The translations under genes were made by a program, and so were the position numbers. Below the pieces are notes generated by a model. That model was not told the origin of the DNA, searched no databases, and was given only the letters and a program-made list of their open reading frames with translations. Below are positions 15,701 to 44,412 of a stretch of DNA of 64,000 nucleotides, one piece after another. The stretch is from contig NZ_CP009302.1 of the NCBI RefSeq assembly GCF_000814825.1, positions 1,860,001-1,924,000 on the forward strand, in the 5' to 3' direction. Within the stretch, counting starts at the first letter, position 1; each line of letters starts with the position of its first letter. Source of the stretch: Berryella intestinalis (lineage in GTDB: Bacteria; Actinomycetota; Coriobacteriia; Coriobacteriales; Eggerthellaceae).

Positions 15701-17049
15701 AGCAAATCTCCCATCTGGGTTTCGATGAAGTCCGTCGCGGCCTCTCCGGCGCAGAACACCTCGTTTTCGAGGACGGCGCGATGGAAGGGAATGGTCGTCT
15801 TGATGCCCTCGATGACGAACTCGTCCAATGCGCGGCGCCCGCGAGCGAGCACCTCTTCGCGATCCTGGCCGAACACGATGAGCTTGGCGACCAGCGAATC
15901 GTAGTACGGAGAGATCTTCGAGCCGCTTTTGATGTAGCTTTCCACGCGCACGCCCGGACCCGAAGGGGGCTCGAAGCGCGTGATGGCACCCGGGCTGGGC
16001 CTGAACCCGCAATCGGGGTCCTCCGCGTTGATGCGGAACTCCATCGCATGGCCGAACGGCGAGAACGGAGCACGGGAAGCGCAGCTCATGGGCTCGCCGG
16101 CAGCGATGCGCAGCTGTTCTTTGATGATGTCGACGCCGGTGATCTGCTCGGACACCGGATGCTCTACCTGCACGCGCGTGTTCATCTCCATGAAGTAGAA
16201 CTGGTTGTCGGAAGACAGGAGGAACTCGATGGTGCCCGCGTTGCGGTAGTCCACAGCGCGCACCGCCTTGGCCGCCGCGACGCTCATGGCATGGCGCAGA
16301 TCGTCGCTGAGCGCAGGAGAGGGGGCTTCCTCGATGAGCTTTTGGTGGCGCCTCTGGACCGAGCAGTCGCGCTCGCACAGCGAGATGTTGTTGCCGAAAT
16401 CGTCGGCGAGCACCTGGACCTCGACGTGGCGGGGGCGCAGCACCAGCTTCTCGAGGTACACGCCATCGTTTCCGAAGGCCGCCCCGGCCTCCGTGCGCGC
16501 CGCGCGGTACTGGGCCTCGAGATCGGCGGGGTCGTGAACCTCGCGCATGCCCTTCCCGCCTCCGCCCGCAGTGGCCTTGATGAGCACGGGATAGCCGACG
16601 GAATCGGCGAACCGGCGCGCCTCCTCGACGGTGTCGATGCAGCCGTCGGATCCGGGCACGGTGGGAACGCCGCACGCCTTCATGGTTTCGCGCGCCGAGC
16701 TCTTGTCGCCCATGCGCTCGATGCACTCGGCCGAGGGGCCGATGAACACCAGGTCGTTGTCGGCGCAGGCGCGGGCGAACTCGGCGTTCTCGGCCAAAAA
16801 CCCGTAACCGGGATGGATGGCCTCGGCGCCGGTGGTGTTCGCGGCTGCGATGATGTTCGACATGACCAGGTAGCTTTTAGCTGCTTGGGCAGGGCCGATG
16901 CATACCGCCTCGTCGGCGTAGCGCACCGGATAGGTGTCGGCGTCTTCCGTTGAGTACACCGCGACCGTCTTCACGCCCAACTCGCGGGCGGCACGCATGA
17001 CGCGCAGCGCCACCTCCCCACGGTTCGCAACGAGAATCTTCTTGAACAT
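15697..17049 (-). CDS. accC: Biotin carboxylase
   Basis: 450 residues. The N-terminal domain begins MFKKILVANRGEVALRVMRA, followed by an ATP-grasp domain with the glycine-rich loop KATAGGGGKGMREV near residue 160 and the EMNTRVQVEHPVSE motif near residue 288, and a C-terminal domain near residue 335. It carboxylates biotin on a carrier domain using ATP and bicarbonate. The start ATG overlaps the stop of the upstream carboxyltransferase-AccB fusion, so the two are translationally coupled and probably form one carboxylase. Confidence 0.96.
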   Translation of the reverse strand: MFKKILVANRGEVALRVMRAARELGVKTVAVYSTEDADTYPVRYADEAVCIGPAQAAKSYLVMSNIIAAANTTGAEAIHPGYGFLAENAEFARACADNDLVFIGPSAECIERMGDKSSARETMKACGVPTVPGSDGCIDTVEEARRFADSVGYPVLIKATAGGGGKGMREVHDPADLEAQYRAARTEAGAAFGNDGVYLEKLVLRPRHVEVQVLADDFGNNISLCERDCSVQRRHQKLIEEAPSPALSDDLRHAMSVAAAKAVRAVDYRNAGTIEFLLSSDNQFYFMEMNTRVQVEHPVSEQITGVDIIKEQLRIAAGEPMSCASRAPFSPFGHAMEFRINAEDPDCGFRPSPGAITRFEPPSGPGVRVESYIKSGSKISPYYDSLVAKLIVFGQDREEVLARGRRALDEFVIEGIKTTIPFHRAVLENEVFCAGEAATDFIETQMGDLL

Positions 17050-39653: not shown

Positions 39654-40211
39654 CTAATCCGCGTTCAGGACGTCAACGCGCAGCTCGGCAAGGATGTCGA
39701 GCGCCTTGCGCATCGAATCCTCGTCGCGGGCCACCGTGCAGCGCGCATCCACGATCACCGGAACCTCGGGGCAGGCGGTGCGGGCTATCACCACGTTCGA
39801 CAGCAGGCACCTCGTTGCGGACAACCCCGCCACTTCGATGCTCACAAACGGCAGGACCCCCATGGACGCCGCCACTTTCTGCGCCTTCATCAAACGGACG
39901 AACAGGTCGGACGATCCGAACGAGGCCTTGAAGTACACCTCGTCGATATCGGTGCGCAGCTCGGCCACCTGGCCGTACAGTCCGTTGCCGATCCCATCCA
40001 GGGTATGGGGCATCGGGCGCACGTGGCTGTCCTGCATGTTCAGATACGCGGTTTCGCGCGTGTCCAAGATGAAGATGATCTTGTCCCCGTTGTCGCGATA
40101 CGCGCGGATCTTGTCCGCAATGCACCCGTCAACTTCGTCGGCTCTCTCAGGCGTGCAGAACCCCCCGACGAAATCCTTTTGAAAGTCGACCACGACCAGC
40201 AAACGCTTCAT
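39654..40211 (-). CDS. Isochorismatase-like cysteine hydrolase
   Basis: 185 residues. LLVVVDFQKDFVGG carries the catalytic Asp, YFKASFGSSDL the Lys and EVAGLSATRCLLSNVVIART the Cys, the triad of nicotinamidase and isochorismatase hydrolases. HVRPMPHTL supplies a metal-site-like His pair. Nicotinamidase is the leading possibility, but the usual metal-binding DxHxxxH segment is not exact (TRETAYLNMQDSH). It is probably co-transcribed with the downstream phosphoesterase. Confidence 0.85.
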   Translation of the reverse strand: MKRLLVVVDFQKDFVGGFCTPERADEVDGCIADKIRAYRDNGDKIIFILDTRETAYLNMQDSHVRPMPHTLDGIGNGLYGQVAELRTDIDEVYFKASFGSSDLFVRLMKAQKVAASMGVLPFVSIEVAGLSATRCLLSNVVIARTACPEVPVIVDARCTVARDEDSMRKALDILAELRVDVLNAD

Positions 40212-40432: not shown

Positions 40433-40463
40433 TTGACAGCAAGTCGACCGAGAATAATATAAG
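40433..40463 (+). promoter_or_regulatory. Promoter of the ACAD-PhnD-MetE-OsmC operon
   Basis: A perfect TTGACA (40433-40438) is followed 16-19 bases later by TAATATAAG, which offers overlapping -10 elements. It lies about 210 bases before the first start codon. The leader contains TGCTATAGCA and repeated TATGCATA-like segments (40504-40533) that may bind a regulator. Confidence 0.6.
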
Positions 40464-40668: not shown

Positions 40669-41799
40669 ATGTCTGACTGTTATCAAAAAGCGAAGGATTT
40701 CGCCGAACAGCATATCGCGCCTTTGGCGGGAAAGATCGACAGCGAAAGCGCTTTCCCCGCCGAGCTGTTCGACCAAATCGGTGAAGCCGGGTTCTTCGCC
40801 CTGCTCATTCCCAAGAACCAGGGTGGATGGGGCATGGGCCTCAAGGAGCATCAGGAGGTTTGCCTCGCCTTCGCCGAAAGCTGCCCGACCGTGGGCCTGT
40901 GCTACATGATGCACAACGTCGCCCTTTTCACCATCCTGTGCAGGGCCGGCGACGATCTGAAGGCCCGCATCGTCGAAGAGGTGGTCGAAAACCGCAAATG
41001 CCTGGCGCTTGCCTACTCCGAGTTCGGAACCGGCACGCACTTCTACCTTCCCCAGACCACCGCGACCCGCACGGACGGGTCCGTCCGGCTCAAGGGCCTC
41101 AAATCCATGGTGACGTCGGCCGAATACGCAAGCTTCTACCTGGTGCTGTCGAACACCTCCGACGGAACCGAGGGCATCAGCAACTGGGTCGTTCCCCTGG
41201 AAACCCCCGGCCTGTCATTCAAAAGCGAATCGTGGCACGGCATGGGCATGCGCGGAAACGTCTCGTGCCCCATGGAGCTCGACGACGTCGAACTTGGGGA
41301 CTTTTGGCGCATCGGAGCCGAAGGGGAGGGCGAAAGCCAAGTGTTCGAGCAGGTGGCGCCTCCCTTCATCCTGGGATTGGCCGCAGTGTACACCGGGCTT
41401 GCCGAACAGCAGTGCCAGATCGCGCTCGACCATGCGAAGCGCAGGGCCTATCCCGATGGAACCAGCCTCACCCAGATCGAAACCGTCCAGCTCCACCTGT
41501 CCGACCTGTACATCAAGGCCCAAAGCTCGAAGATGCTCACCGTCGAAGCAGCTCGCGCGATGGAAGCGCAAGAGCCCGACGCTCTGGCCAAGGTGATCGC
41601 AGCGCGCATCAACGCCTCCGAAAACGCCATCGAAGCGTCGCGCATCGCCATGCGCGTCGGAGGCGGCAAAGCCTACAACGGGGCGACGGCTGTCGAACGC
41701 CTGACGCGCGACGCCTACGCCGGCCAGATCATGGCTCCCAGCGTCGACGTCCTCCATGTGTGGCTGGGAAAGGCCCTCGCAGGCCTTCCCCTGCTGTAA
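40669..41799 (+). CDS. Acyl-CoA dehydrogenase-fold flavoprotein, divergent
   Basis: 376 residues from the ATG at 40669 (GGGAGA upstream). The N-terminal helical domain (FPAELFDQIGEAGFFALLIPKNQGG), the central flavin strand region (LAYSEFGTGTHF, LKGLKSMVTSAEYASFYLV) and the C-terminal helical domain are all present. At the position of the usual catalytic Glu (YEGT of MCAD) the sequence reads AYAGQIMAPS, so that residue is missing. This C-terminal form resembles subgroups that include sulfur-compound flavin enzymes (DszC/SfnB type) more than fatty-acid dehydrogenases; this is from memory of the families and needs alignment. It is the first gene of the four-gene unit. Confidence 0.82.
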   Translation: MSDCYQKAKDFAEQHIAPLAGKIDSESAFPAELFDQIGEAGFFALLIPKNQGGWGMGLKEHQEVCLAFAESCPTVGLCYMMHNVALFTILCRAGDDLKARIVEEVVENRKCLALAYSEFGTGTHFYLPQTTATRTDGSVRLKGLKSMVTSAEYASFYLVLSNTSDGTEGISNWVVPLETPGLSFKSESWHGMGMRGNVSCPMELDDVELGDFWRIGAEGEGESQVFEQVAPPFILGLAAVYTGLAEQQCQIALDHAKRRAYPDGTSLTQIETVQLHLSDLYIKAQSSKMLTVEAARAMEAQEPDALAKVIAARINASENAIEASRIAMRVGGGKAYNGATAVERLTRDAYAGQIMAPSVDVLHVWLGKALAGLPLL

Positions 41800-41865
41800 G
41801 AACCGTTCGGAGGGACGGTGCACGCCGTCCCTCCGAATCTCGAGCGAAAGACGAAAGGAGCGCCT

Positions 41866-42693
41866 ATGTCTGCGTTGAAGGTAGGAGCCGTTATATACGA
41901 CCCGAAGGTAACCGTCATCTGGGATTTGATCAAAGGATACTGCGACAAGGCCGGAGCCCCCATCCAACCGGTGTTCTACCGAGATTACAAACTGCAGGTC
42001 GACGGGCTGGAATCGGGCGAGATCGACATCGCCTGGAATTCGCCCCTTGCCCATCTCGATGCGCATCTTCGATTCGCCGGGGCCGAAAAGCACGGCTGTA
42101 TGCGCAACACCGACCAGGACCTGCGCACCGTGCTGGCGGTACGAGCCGATTCGGGCATCGAGGCTATCGATGACCTGAAGGGAAAGACCGTGGGCTTCGG
42201 AGCCATAGACAGCCCTCAGGCTCGCCTGATCCCCATCGCGTTTCTCCACGATGAAGGGCTCGCCTTCGGGAAAGACTACGAAGAACGGCGGTTCGACATC
42301 GGGATCGGGCTTCACGGCGACCACGTCGGCGGGGAAAAGGACGCTATGTTCGCCCTGGTTGCAGGCGAGGTGGACGCCACCTTCGCACTCGAAGCGAACT
42401 TCCAAGGTTGGATAGCCGACGGCACCGTCGACGAAAACACGGTAACCGTCATCGCCCACACGCCCGCATTCGATCACTGCCTGTTCACCGCCCGTCCCGA
42501 CGTAGACGAGGACGCGCTGGCCGCATTCACCGACGCCCTGCTTTCCATGGACTACTCCGATCCCGAACAGAAAGAGATCATGGACATGGAGGGTCTCACC
42601 GCGTGGGTGCCCGGCCGCACATCGGGTTATGGTCCGGTGACTCGGGCAAACGACCTGATGGGATTCCTCGACGAGTTCAACGCACGCCCGTAG
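41866..42693 (+). CDS. PhnD-like phosphonate/phosphate-type binding protein without signal peptide
   Basis: 275 residues from the ATG at 41866, behind AAAGGAG. The fold markers are those of PhnD-like type II binding proteins: VGAVIYDPKVTVIWDLIKGYC, LESGEIDIAWNSPLAH, IEAIDDLKGKTVGFGAIDSPQA and ALVAGEVDATFALEANF. It lacks a signal peptide or lipobox, and no ABC permease or ATPase gene is in the window, so it probably works in the cytoplasm, either as a sensor or as an enzyme-associated ligand carrier. The length fits the mature form of the family. Confidence 0.83.
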   Translation: MSALKVGAVIYDPKVTVIWDLIKGYCDKAGAPIQPVFYRDYKLQVDGLESGEIDIAWNSPLAHLDAHLRFAGAEKHGCMRNTDQDLRTVLAVRADSGIEAIDDLKGKTVGFGAIDSPQARLIPIAFLHDEGLAFGKDYEERRFDIGIGLHGDHVGGEKDAMFALVAGEVDATFALEANFQGWIADGTVDENTVTVIAHTPAFDHCLFTARPDVDEDALAAFTDALLSMDYSDPEQKEIMDMEGLTAWVPGRTSGYGPVTRANDLMGFLDEFNARP

Positions 42694-42731
42694 GTCCCCC
42701 GATTCGCAACCGAAAGGGAAGAGAGAATAGC

Positions 42732-43904
42732 ATGGAGCGATTCTTCACCTCTCTGATGGGCTCCATGCCGCGCAGCGCCGAGCTCATGCGGGCTCGGCGC
42801 CTGCTGGCGGCAGGTCGCCTCGAGCAGACGGAGTACGACCTTCTCGTGCGCAAGGAGACCGAGCGCGTCGTCAAGCTGCAAGAGCGCCTGGGGCTCGACG
42901 TCATCGTTTCCGGAGAGATCGCGCGCGATAACTACGTGTCGTTCATATCCGAGAAGATCGGCGGCGTCACGCCGATGAGCATGGCCGATATGATGGACTA
43001 CGTCGAAGACAAGCGAGCCTTCGACGAGATCCTGGATACGCTGGATGTTCCCGCGGCCTCGATCAGAAACGCCATCTGCACCGGGACCCTCGAGTATCGG
43101 GGCGACATCGTGCTGGAGGAACTGCGACTGCTGAAAAGCCTCACCGACAAACCGGTGAAGATCACGCTTCCCGGGCCGTACCTGGTCACCCGAAGCATGT
43201 GGCTCCCTGCGCTCAGCACGCAGGGATATCCCGACAAGGAACGCTTGGGCGAGGCCGTGCTCGAGATCTACCGTCGGGAGATCAGCGCTTTGCAGGATGA
43301 GGGCGTCGATATCATACAATTCGACGAACCCGTCCTCACCGAAGTGGTGTTCACCGAGGGCAAGACGCGCACCTTCATGTGCGCCGCACTGTCCCAGCGC
43401 AAAGACCCGGCCGAAGAGCTCGAATTCGCCGCAAGCCTCATCAAGCGGGTCGTGGGCTTCGTCGATGAGTCGCGTTCCGTCTCAAGCTTGCATGTATGCC
43501 GCGGAAACTGGAGCCGCGACGAATCGATACTGCTCACCGGACCATACACCCCGCTGATCGACCTGTTCTCCCAGGCTGCGCCCCGCATGCTGGCACTCGA
43601 GTTCTCTACGCCGCGCGCAGGCGAACTGGATGCGTTCCTGAACGACCCGCGCATACGGGGAAGGTTCGCATTGGGGCTGGGCGTGCTCAACCCCCGCCTC
43701 GACCGGACCGAGCCCGTCGAATCTATGATGGAACGCGGGCGGAAAGCGGCACGCGCATTAGGCGCCGACAACGTGGCGCTCAACCCCGACTGCGGTTTCG
43801 CGACGTTTTCCAACCGCCCGGTAAGCACCTATGACCTTATCGAGCAGAAAACGAAGCGCATGGTCGAGGCATCGCGCAGACTGAGAGCCGAATTCCATGC
43901 CTGA
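42732..43904 (+). CDS. Core MetE-type (cobalamin-independent) methionine synthase-like methyltransferase
   Basis: 390 residues, matching only the catalytic C-terminal half of MetE (full MetE is about 750). The zinc ligands expected for homocysteine thiolate are visible: SSLHVCRGNW (His and Cys, near residue 255), an acidic residue in the barrel, and NPDCGFATF (Cys near residue 355). IIQFDEPVLTEV is the barrel motif near residue 197. Short MetE proteins elsewhere take methyl groups from methylcobalamin proteins or other donors rather than methyl-folate. Here the donor is unknown. It ends overlapping the next gene by eight bases. Confidence 0.87.
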   Translation: MERFFTSLMGSMPRSAELMRARRLLAAGRLEQTEYDLLVRKETERVVKLQERLGLDVIVSGEIARDNYVSFISEKIGGVTPMSMADMMDYVEDKRAFDEILDTLDVPAASIRNAICTGTLEYRGDIVLEELRLLKSLTDKPVKITLPGPYLVTRSMWLPALSTQGYPDKERLGEAVLEIYRREISALQDEGVDIIQFDEPVLTEVVFTEGKTRTFMCAALSQRKDPAEELEFAASLIKRVVGFVDESRSVSSLHVCRGNWSRDESILLTGPYTPLIDLFSQAAPRMLALEFSTPRAGELDAFLNDPRIRGRFALGLGVLNPRLDRTEPVESMMERGRKAARALGADNVALNPDCGFATFSNRPVSTYDLIEQKTKRMVEASRRLRAEFHA

Positions 43905-44412
43905 TCGAACCCACTCCCCGAAAGCGCACGACGCGCAACGACAAGCCGAGCCCGCTGTTCCGGAGTCGCAGCGCTTCACCGCGTCCTATCGCGCGATACG
44001 CACCGACGAGGCCGTAAAGGTCTACAACGGCGCCGGCATGAGGTCCGTCTCCCGCGTCCTCAGCTTCGACCCCGCAGACGAAGAATTCAGCGCACTCGAC
44101 GAATGCGCCTGCGCCATCCTGTCCGAGATCCTGCTTCTCCTCGGCGATGAGTTTCACCGCCGAGGAGAAGACCTGATGGACGTCGAAGCAAGGGCGCATG
44201 TAACCGTAGAGAACCCGTTGGCAGCCCTCGGCGTGCGCGGCGTCGAAGGCACTGCGCGCATCGCGTCGGTGCGCGTCGAAGCCTACCTGTTCACATTCAT
44301 GGACGAGCCGCAAGCTCGCACGGTGATCGACGGGGCGCTCGCGCGGGCAACCCTCTACCAAAGCCTGAAAGACGCCCTGTCCATCACCTGCCGATTCTCC
44401 CTAACCGAATGA
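43897..44412 (+). CDS. OsmC-like fold protein, atypical
   Basis: 171 residues; the start overlaps the methyltransferase gene by eight bases. The central helix with ALDECACAILSEILLLLGDE, the strands GVEGTARIASVRVEAYLF and the last helix-strand (ALARATLYQSLKDALSITCRF) follow the OsmC order. In OsmC peroxidases two Cys are required; the first position is plausible (ECACA), but the second, normally in a RCPxHRTL-like segment, reads RATLYQSL. So thiol peroxidase activity is doubtful and it may bind ligands or scaffold. This assignment is tentative. Confidence 0.6.
   Translation: MPDRTHSPKAHDAQRQAEPAVPESQRFTASYRAIRTDEAVKVYNGAGMRSVSRVLSFDPADEEFSALDECACAILSEILLLLGDEFHRRGEDLMDVEARAHVTVENPLAALGVRGVEGTARIASVRVEAYLFTFMDEPQARTVIDGALARATLYQSLKDALSITCRFSLTE

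Follow-up and report, generated by a model that had tools for sequence, protein, structure and literature searches.

A stretch of 64,000 nt from the genome of Berryella intestinalis (assembly GCF_000814825.1, contig NZ_CP009302.1, positions 1,860,001 to 1,924,000), called the window here and used for all coordinates below, contains four consecutive open reading frames on the plus strand (Table 1). A sequence-only reading had described these genes as a tightly packed group transcribed from one TTGACA promoter, and the frames and their coordinates were confirmed. The 38 bases between the genes of the substrate-binding-fold protein (SBP) and the MetE-like protein, and the 8-base overlap of the MetE and OsmC genes, were correctly given; the gap between the flavoprotein and SBP genes is 66 bases and not 67. 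A TTGACA-type site is indeed present upstream, but it is weak evidence because chance alone would give 1.1 sites of this kind and two were found.

Table 1. Genes and sites of the four-gene unit (window positions)
Feature	Position	Strand	Remarks
Candidate sigma-70 promoter TTGACA-N16-TAATAT	40433..40460	+	10/12 consensus matches; about 210 bases upstream of gene 1
ACAD-fold flavoprotein without catalytic Glu	40669..41799	+	376 aa; Pfam PF02770/02771/00441 over cut-off
PhnD-like substrate-binding-fold protein (SBP), signal-less	41866..42693	+	275 aa; PF12974, 126 bits
Codon of invariant Cys205 of the SBP-like protein	42478..42480	+	Aligns with ligand-capping Tyr208 of PtxB
Core MetE-like zinc methyltransferase, catalytic half only	42732..43904	+	390 aa; PF01717, 103 bits
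Codon of invariant Cys217 of the MetE-like protein	43380..43382	+	In-frame TGA at the equivalent position in locus L103
OsmC-fold protein without conserved cysteines	43897..44412	+	171 aa; relatives over Pfam OsmC cut-off

The first gene encodes a protein of the ACAD fold with FAD-binding domains, assigned by its three Pfam ACAD domains and by NCBIfam, where the best match is the Rv1679 family NF049984 (243.6 bits, cut-off 600). Alignment with a butyryl-CoA-type enzyme places Ala356 of the motif 'IMAPS' at the position of the catalytic Glu of 'IYEGT', and M355, A356 and P357 are at least 93% conserved among 82 relatives. The missing Glu at the MCAD-type position had already been recognized from the window alone. 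The second protein was modelled by AlphaFold with a pLDDT of 96, and its top Foldseek matches, PhnD and PtxB, identify a type II SBP fold. Neither a signal peptide nor a lipobox was found in it. Its chain opens directly at strand 1 of the fold, as do those of relatives checked from other phyla, which agrees with the earlier claim that it has no export signal. The earlier placing of the unit's proteins inside the cell was supported too. The SBP has the fold of the phosphite and phosphonate binders PtxB and PhnD, together with part of their STS-H oxyanion site (PMC5700983). In contrast to these, the SBP of the unit is cytoplasmic and has no conserved ABC partner genes, it carries a 7-residue GDHVGGE insertion, and the capping Tyr of PtxB is replaced by the invariant Cys205. 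No conserved ABC permease or ATPase neighbours emerged from the neighbourhood clusters; the single ABC-type cluster was an ATPase family seen in 13 loci at scattered distances, never adjoining the unit. Residues D115, S116, D152, H204 and C205 are invariant in the SBP-like family (84+9 sequences).

The third protein consists of the C-terminal catalytic half of MetE only, as had been proposed. Its zinc ligands (H254, C256, E290 and C354) are conserved, and so are S11, E62 and D198, which correspond in a profile alignment to the homocysteine-binding Ser433, Glu484 and Asp599 of the E. coli enzyme. Retention of the zinc and homocysteine residues that such a transfer needs is consistent with the earlier suggestion that a methyl group ends on a thiol. 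The fourth protein of the window has no Pfam match of its own. Its AlphaFold model (pLDDT 90.6) was matched by Foldseek to E. coli OsmC (1nye; probability 1.00, E 1.2e-5). It had been noted as lacking the second Cys of OsmC, which understates the case, as no cysteine at all is conserved in the family (41 sequences). The fold is that of the OsmC/Ohr peroxidases, but the two conserved catalytic cysteines of those enzymes are absent, so the protein is not expected to act as a thiol peroxidase.

Among the best 80 SBP-gene loci in GTDB genomes, 73 have the complete set of four as an uninterrupted same-strand block; five different orders of the genes and more than 10 phyla are represented. The linkage is therefore beyond chance, and the co-occurrence by which the sequence-only reading proposed to judge its single unit was found. 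Its expectation that the unit would be a feature of anaerobes did not hold: obligate anaerobes such as Finegoldia and Anaerococcus carry it, and so do Bacillus, Paenibacillus and Haemophilus. In Verrucomicrobiota the unit is rare (2/289). No paper linking the four families was found, although they may be mentioned in earlier selenoprotein-neighbourhood work by Haft; a text search with the gene names in comparative-genomics papers on selenium did not turn up the unit.

Evidence from the genomes points towards selenium, an element that the earlier reading had not considered, and gives no support to the sulfur- or phosphorus-containing substrate suggested there. SelD passed its cut-off in 52 of the 54 genomes that bear the unit, a count made on genomes related by descent; the remaining two are drafts that yielded selA, or pieces of selA and selD. 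Such co-occurrence identifies neither the substrate nor the direction of the reaction. Within Actinomycetota it is uninformative by itself, since SelD is common there (61% of the control sample). In Lactobacillales, SelD occurs in 48 of 179 genomes (27%), and all three genomes with the unit have it. Most unit genomes also encode SelA. However, of the seven that lack it among the first 54, four carry SelU and the other three lack both, and selD was the only selenium gene found of those searched in some genomes. The unit therefore tracks SelD and not one particular use of selenium, and selenocysteine decoding was rejected as the sole link.

Gene order ties the unit to selenium as well. The selD gene adjoins it in four loci (L098, L101, L105 and L106), one of which (L105) also has selA, selB, yedF and a DUF3343 gene beside it. 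A gene for the selenium-specific LysR regulator NF040786, over cut-off, lies next to the unit in L059 and L101, a yedF-like gene lies beside it in L094, and the ACAD-SBP pair alone stands beside selB-selA-selD in L028. Neighbours of this kind (selD, yedF, LysR, selA or selB) occur in several unrelated lineages. In most genomes selD does not adjoin the unit; in that of B. intestinalis they lie at 0.493 Mb and 1.90 Mb, respectively. By occurrence in SelD genomes and by adjoining selenium genes in several lineages, the four genes belong with the selenium-utilization genes, and their link to selenium is well supported.

One homologue of the MetE-like protein, in L103, has an in-frame TGA at the otherwise invariant Cys217, with homology on both sides of the codon and selA in the same genome. 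These features suggest that the L103 protein is possibly a selenoprotein form, although L103 is a single draft metagenome genome in which the TGA could be a sequencing error or a nonsense mutation. The hairpin following the codon was no better than shuffled sequence (z -0.57), so a significant SECIS element is unsupported. The MetE genes of the two unit-bearing Verrucomicrobiota genomes (of 289) contain no such TGA. A break in the MetE gene of L061 was also considered as selenocysteine and rejected as a frameshift near a run of C. In L103, the OsmC-fold protein is fused to a TusA-type sulfur-carrier domain.

Little is known of how bacteria acquire selenium from organic or methylated compounds beyond the corrinoid-dependent mlp gene clusters (MGCs), and according to a 2022 review a high-affinity transport system for selenium has yet to be identified (PMC9312934). 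Kountz and Balskus described an enzyme that moves a methyl group between methylcobalamin and selenide, and argued that SAM methylates selenide non-enzymatically, hence the need for salvage (PMC10418091). We tentatively favour, at somewhat short of an even chance, a role of the unit in cytoplasmic selenium supply, by salvage from small methylated selenium compounds. More cautiously still, we propose that the route may be a previously undescribed, corrinoid-independent one. The PhnD-like protein would capture methylselenol, methylseleninate or a precursor, and Cys205 would probably touch or covalently hold the selenium. The compound so presented would be cleaved or reduced by the Glu-less flavoprotein, which would not carry out acyl-CoA dehydrogenation, and demethylated by the core MetE-like zinc enzyme (putatively a selenoprotein in some bacteria), the methyl group passing to zinc-bound homocysteine, or another thiol, to give methionine. 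Selenide or a protein-bound perselenide would remain, with Cys217 as the candidate holder, and would be delivered to SelD for conversion to selenophosphate. The OsmC-fold protein may act as a binding or hand-over partner rather than as a peroxidase.

Type 1 MGCs offer a close functional parallel in several respects: they too are proposed to free selenium from methylated selenides and pass the methyl group on, they co-occur strongly with selenium-use genes, and they have a minority form without selenium traits that is thought to act on methyl-sulfur. However, MGCs rely on corrinoid proteins together with methyltransferases of the SCMT type, and have been described from anaerobes only, whereas the unit consists of four other families, has no corrinoid protein and is also found in aerobes. 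No corrinoid protein or SCMT-homologue family recurred in the neighbourhood clusters inspected. The tracking of SelD across many phyla makes the unit a candidate selenium-salvage system that is concrete and testable, and its hosts include the human-associated Finegoldia, Anaerococcus, Parvimonas, Gemella, Veillonella and Haemophilus parainfluenzae as well as Bacillus and Paenibacillus.

A selenium-linked unit might instead acquire or reduce inorganic or oxidized selenium (selenite, seleninate), or traffic perselenide, the zinc site of the MetE-like protein then serving selenium transfer and not demethylation. The relationship of the SBP to phosphite and phosphonate oxyanion binders, the recurrence of TusA- and YedF-type carriers as partners, and the three SelD genomes that lack both SelA and SelU are consistent with this. 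The SBP also scores on TIGR04553, a putative selenate-binding family, but far under the cut-off (97.6 against 250 bits), and the full conservation of the homocysteine residues of MetE is left unexplained. We consider this alternative unlikely, though the most credible of the four weighed here.

Less probable again is a folate-independent core methionine synthase system that makes methionine and is tied to selenium indirectly, through a shared lifestyle. Like MesA-MesD (PMC7857596), the MetE of the unit is a half-length enzyme without the folate domain that keeps the zinc and homocysteine residues of methionine synthases, and core MetE families can require partner proteins, as MesD requires MesX (PMC7857596). 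Further, the window genome gave no match to the MetH activation domain. Unlike MesA-MesD, however, the protein forms its own subfamily, with the extra invariant Cys217 and a place inside this operon, and its scores fall far short of the curated cut-offs for the named methionine synthase models. MesX (DUF1852) is absent from the four genes, and the oxygen requirement of MesD is not matched in a unit present in Finegoldia and Anaerococcus. MesB is known only together with AcsC/AcsD, the corrinoid protein of the Wood-Ljungdahl pathway. Replacement of MetH was rejected as a general rule because the MetH activation domain exceeds its cut-off in 25 of the 54 unit genomes. Methionine synthesis as the main role is also disfavoured by 15 Bacillota loci in which neither a SAM riboswitch nor a T-box lies close to the unit, by the selenium genes that adjoin it in several lineages, and by the presence of SelD even where SelD is uncommon.

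Methyl transfer of this kind may in principle be reversible, and the selenium-specific LysR adjoins the unit in two lineages, as might be expected if the unit methylated or detoxified surplus selenide or another metalloid. We regard this as improbable: neither a SAM-dependent methyltransferase nor an exporter was a conserved neighbour in the clusters inspected, MetE chemistry places the methyl group on an amino-acid thiol, and the unit also occurs where selD is the sole selenium gene found among those searched.

A related arrangement is known from Mycobacterium tuberculosis, where Rv1679-Rv1680-Rv1681 (NF049984, NF049985 and NF049973) likewise include adjacent genes for a Glu-less ACAD and a signal-less SBP-like protein. 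The five invariant SBP residues are the same in Rv1680, whose family model matched the window SBP at 192.6 bits (cut-off 400). There, a radical SAM protein whose N-terminus is weakly TusA-like stands as third partner in place of MetE and OsmC, and the SBP motif is NTN/KHGDTG rather than the NSPL/HGDHVGGE of the unit. SelD is absent from the two over-cut-off genomes of this Mycobacterium type, so the ACAD-SBP core is able to function in the absence of selenium. Those genomes, together with a methylthioadenosine-phosphorylase-like gene close to the ACAD-SBP pair at six loci (two from one genome), could suggest that salvage of methylated sulfur (methanethiol, methylthioadenosine products) is the main role and selenium a side effect, but this is very improbable, as the form that tracks SelD is the one containing MetE and OsmC, and the phosphorylase-like neighbours were seen in Actinomycetota loci only, mostly without MetE. 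The unit provides four unassigned protein subfamilies for annotation, and a lead towards understanding the unexplained Rv1679-Rv1681 of M. tuberculosis.

Each of the four reading frames that the sequence-only reading had placed in the window, positions 1,860,001-1,924,000 of the Berryella intestinalis genome (complete, 1.97 Mb), was recovered at the same position, all on the + strand. The 38-base gap and the 8-base overlap were also as described, while the first gap is 66 bases rather than 67. The proposed TTGACA promoter is present, yet the region has two such sites where chance alone would give 1.1. An isochorismatase-like frame upstream of the unit (window 39654-40211, - strand) was not among its observed conserved neighbours. 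Of the named relatives found, Berryella wangjianweii (L034; L-numbers denote loci, G-numbers genomes) is the nearest, with 73% identity in the PhnD-like substrate-binding-fold protein (SBP).

Coordinates of the unit and of related features in other genomes
Feature	Sequence	Position	Strand	Remark
Promoter TTGACA-N16-TAATAT	window	40433-40460	+	sequence match
Flavoprotein (ACAD) ORF	window	40669-41799	+	as in sequence-only reading
PhnD-like protein (SBP) ORF	window	41866-42693	+	as in sequence-only reading
MetE-like ORF	window	42732-43904	+	as in sequence-only reading
OsmC-like ORF	window	43897-44412	+	as in sequence-only reading
Mycobacterium-type ACAD + SBP, then Rv1681-family radical SAM gene	L021	6697-9697		
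Mycobacterium-type ACAD + SBP, then Rv1681-family radical SAM gene	L022	3204-6172		
In-frame TGA at invariant Cys217, MetE-like	L103	5212-5214		

Searching GTDB species genomes with an SBP alignment yielded 295 relatives, and the best 80 were kept. In 73 of these 80 loci the four genes sit side by side on a single strand, in any of five orders; several of the other loci are cut by contig ends. Going by the titles of its records, the unit occurs in Bacillota, Actinomycetota, Pseudomonadota, Campylobacterota, Chloroflexota, Planctomycetota, Armatimonadota, Acidobacteriota, Nitrospinota, Synergistota and Verrucomicrobiota. That the linkage persists through reordering, across lineages so far apart, argues strongly for one shared function of the four genes. 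The spread of the unit is patchy: of 121 genomes of the window's family three have the SBP, as do three of 179 Lactobacillales, and the MetE-like protein was found in 2 of 289 Verrucomicrobiota. Finegoldia magna carries three tandem ACAD paralogues ahead of the SBP gene (L037:4578-7985), and L042, L060 and L062 carry two.

Selenophosphate synthetase (SelD) scored over its curated cut-off in 52 of 54 unit-bearing genomes. The two exceptions are drafts, G341, which has selA, and G550, in which selD and selA are matched only in part. For comparison, SelD is present in 243 of 397 Actinomycetota (61%) and 48 of 179 Lactobacillales (27%). Treating genomes as independent, although they are not, puts the probability of 52 of 54 near 1e-9 even at the 61% baseline; all three unit-bearing Lactobacillales have SelD (chance about 0.02). 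SelA was found in 47 of the 54 genomes and in 23 of 28 further ones (one genome is common to both sets). Of the seven first-set genomes lacking SelA, four have SelU and the other three lack both. It is therefore SelD, as the common entry point, that the unit tracks, rather than any single use of selenium.

When neighbours were clustered, selD proved to adjoin the unit in L098, L106, L101 and L105, and L028 has an ACAD-SBP pair beside selB, selA and selD. The rough chance expectation for selD is about 0.4 of 80 loci (16-kb stretch, 3-Mb genome). A LysR gene adjoining the unit belongs to the selenium-metabolism family NF040786 (265.6 bits in L059 and 315 in L101; cut-off 250), and those of ACAD-SBP loci L026 and L023 score just under the cut-off. 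In L094 the gene directly upstream of the unit is YedF-like (98.7 of 110 bits), and L105 has yedF and a DUF3343-like gene. GrdB/PrdB-family frames near the unit (L098:6122-6544, L106:10380-10802, L105:2437-3471 and 16249-16722) appear to stop early, like selenoprotein genes under table 11. The selenium locus of the window genome itself (L120, G000:C1:485000-503000), 1.4 Mb from the unit, holds selA and selD, the latter with an in-frame TGA, besides a small DUF3343-like frame and a YedF C-terminal domain protein that scores above the TIGR03527 cut-off.

The flavoprotein contains three ACAD domains and, as first read, lacks the catalytic Glu: alignment to a solved butyryl-CoA-type enzyme places Ala356 there, and M355, A356 and P357 are conserved among 82 relatives. 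SBP has the phosphonate-binding fold (PF12974), and its AlphaFold model (pLDDT 96) gives PhnD and PtxB as top Foldseek matches. The absence of an export signal was upheld, the chain beginning directly at strand 1, likewise in relatives. Te_PtxB holds phosphite through S130, T131, S132 and H160, under a Tyr208 cap (PMC5700983). Profile alignment puts SBP S116 opposite S130, H150 opposite H160 and C205 opposite Tyr208, with GDHVGGE inserted after H150. Every one of 84 unit-type and nine other (NTN-type) sequences has D115, S116, D152, H204 and C205. A ligand-facing cysteine, in an oxyanion-binding fold that is cytoplasmic, suggests thiol chemistry. The fourth protein is assigned an OsmC fold from its model (pLDDT 90.6), which matches OsmC structures; its relatives pass the Pfam cut-off, and no conserved cysteine was found among 41 sequences. 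In L103, a Verrucomicrobiia draft, it carries a fused TusA domain, and each of the two domains exceeds its Pfam cut-off.

The MetE-like protein is indeed the catalytic half alone. Its H254, C256, E290 and C354 correspond to the MetE zinc ligands, and the homocysteine residues given by Price et al. are represented by S11, E62 and D198. In L103 the codon exactly at Cys217 is a TGA, flanked by homology on both sides; it is TGC or TGT in the other 76 sequences covering the position. Together with selA in that genome, this suggests Sec at a position absent from MetE residue lists, and makes the L103 protein a candidate new selenoprotein family. The case is suggestive, not proven, because a hairpin after the TGA was no better than in shuffled sequence. 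The MetE-like gene of Companilactobacillus versmoldensis (L061:8811-9996) is frameshifted near a C run, through sequencing error or as a pseudogene.

The model that uses all the parts is selenium salvage from methylated selenium compounds. SBP would capture such a compound, the flavoprotein would cleave or reduce it, the MetE-like protein would pass the methyl group to zinc-bound homocysteine, and selenide or perselenide would be delivered to SelD, with the OsmC-like protein acting as a partner. We infer the substrate, the direction and the role of each protein, and would give this exact mechanism somewhat less than an even chance. Kountz and Balskus described a corrinoid counterpart, and gave as the reason for such a system that selenide and SAM react non-enzymatically (PMC10418091).

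No known system with this gene set was found in the literature searched. The flavoprotein, SBP and OsmC-like protein each depart from the parent family in at least one defining test run; the MetE-like protein agrees in the residue tests, its enzymatic activity being predicted from sequence. Supplying selenium, as proposed here, is a known job, but not one known to be done by this four-gene set. The closest sequence relative is the Rv1679-Rv1680 ACAD-SBP pair of M. tuberculosis. In genomes of that type the pair is followed by an Rv1681-family radical SAM protein, with a weak N-terminal TusA match in L021 and L022, and both genomes sampled lack SelD. In seven other Actinomycetota loci (L023-L029) the third gene has a weak N-terminal TusA match and, further on, a weak match to diiron oxidases (AurF, R2-like ligand-binding oxidase). 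With partners so varied, the ACAD-SBP core may be a module acting on sulfur or selenium. A methylthioadenosine-phosphorylase-like gene lies near the pair in L022, L024, L027, L029, L030 and L100 (the last two from one genome), which hints at a methyl-sulfur branch.
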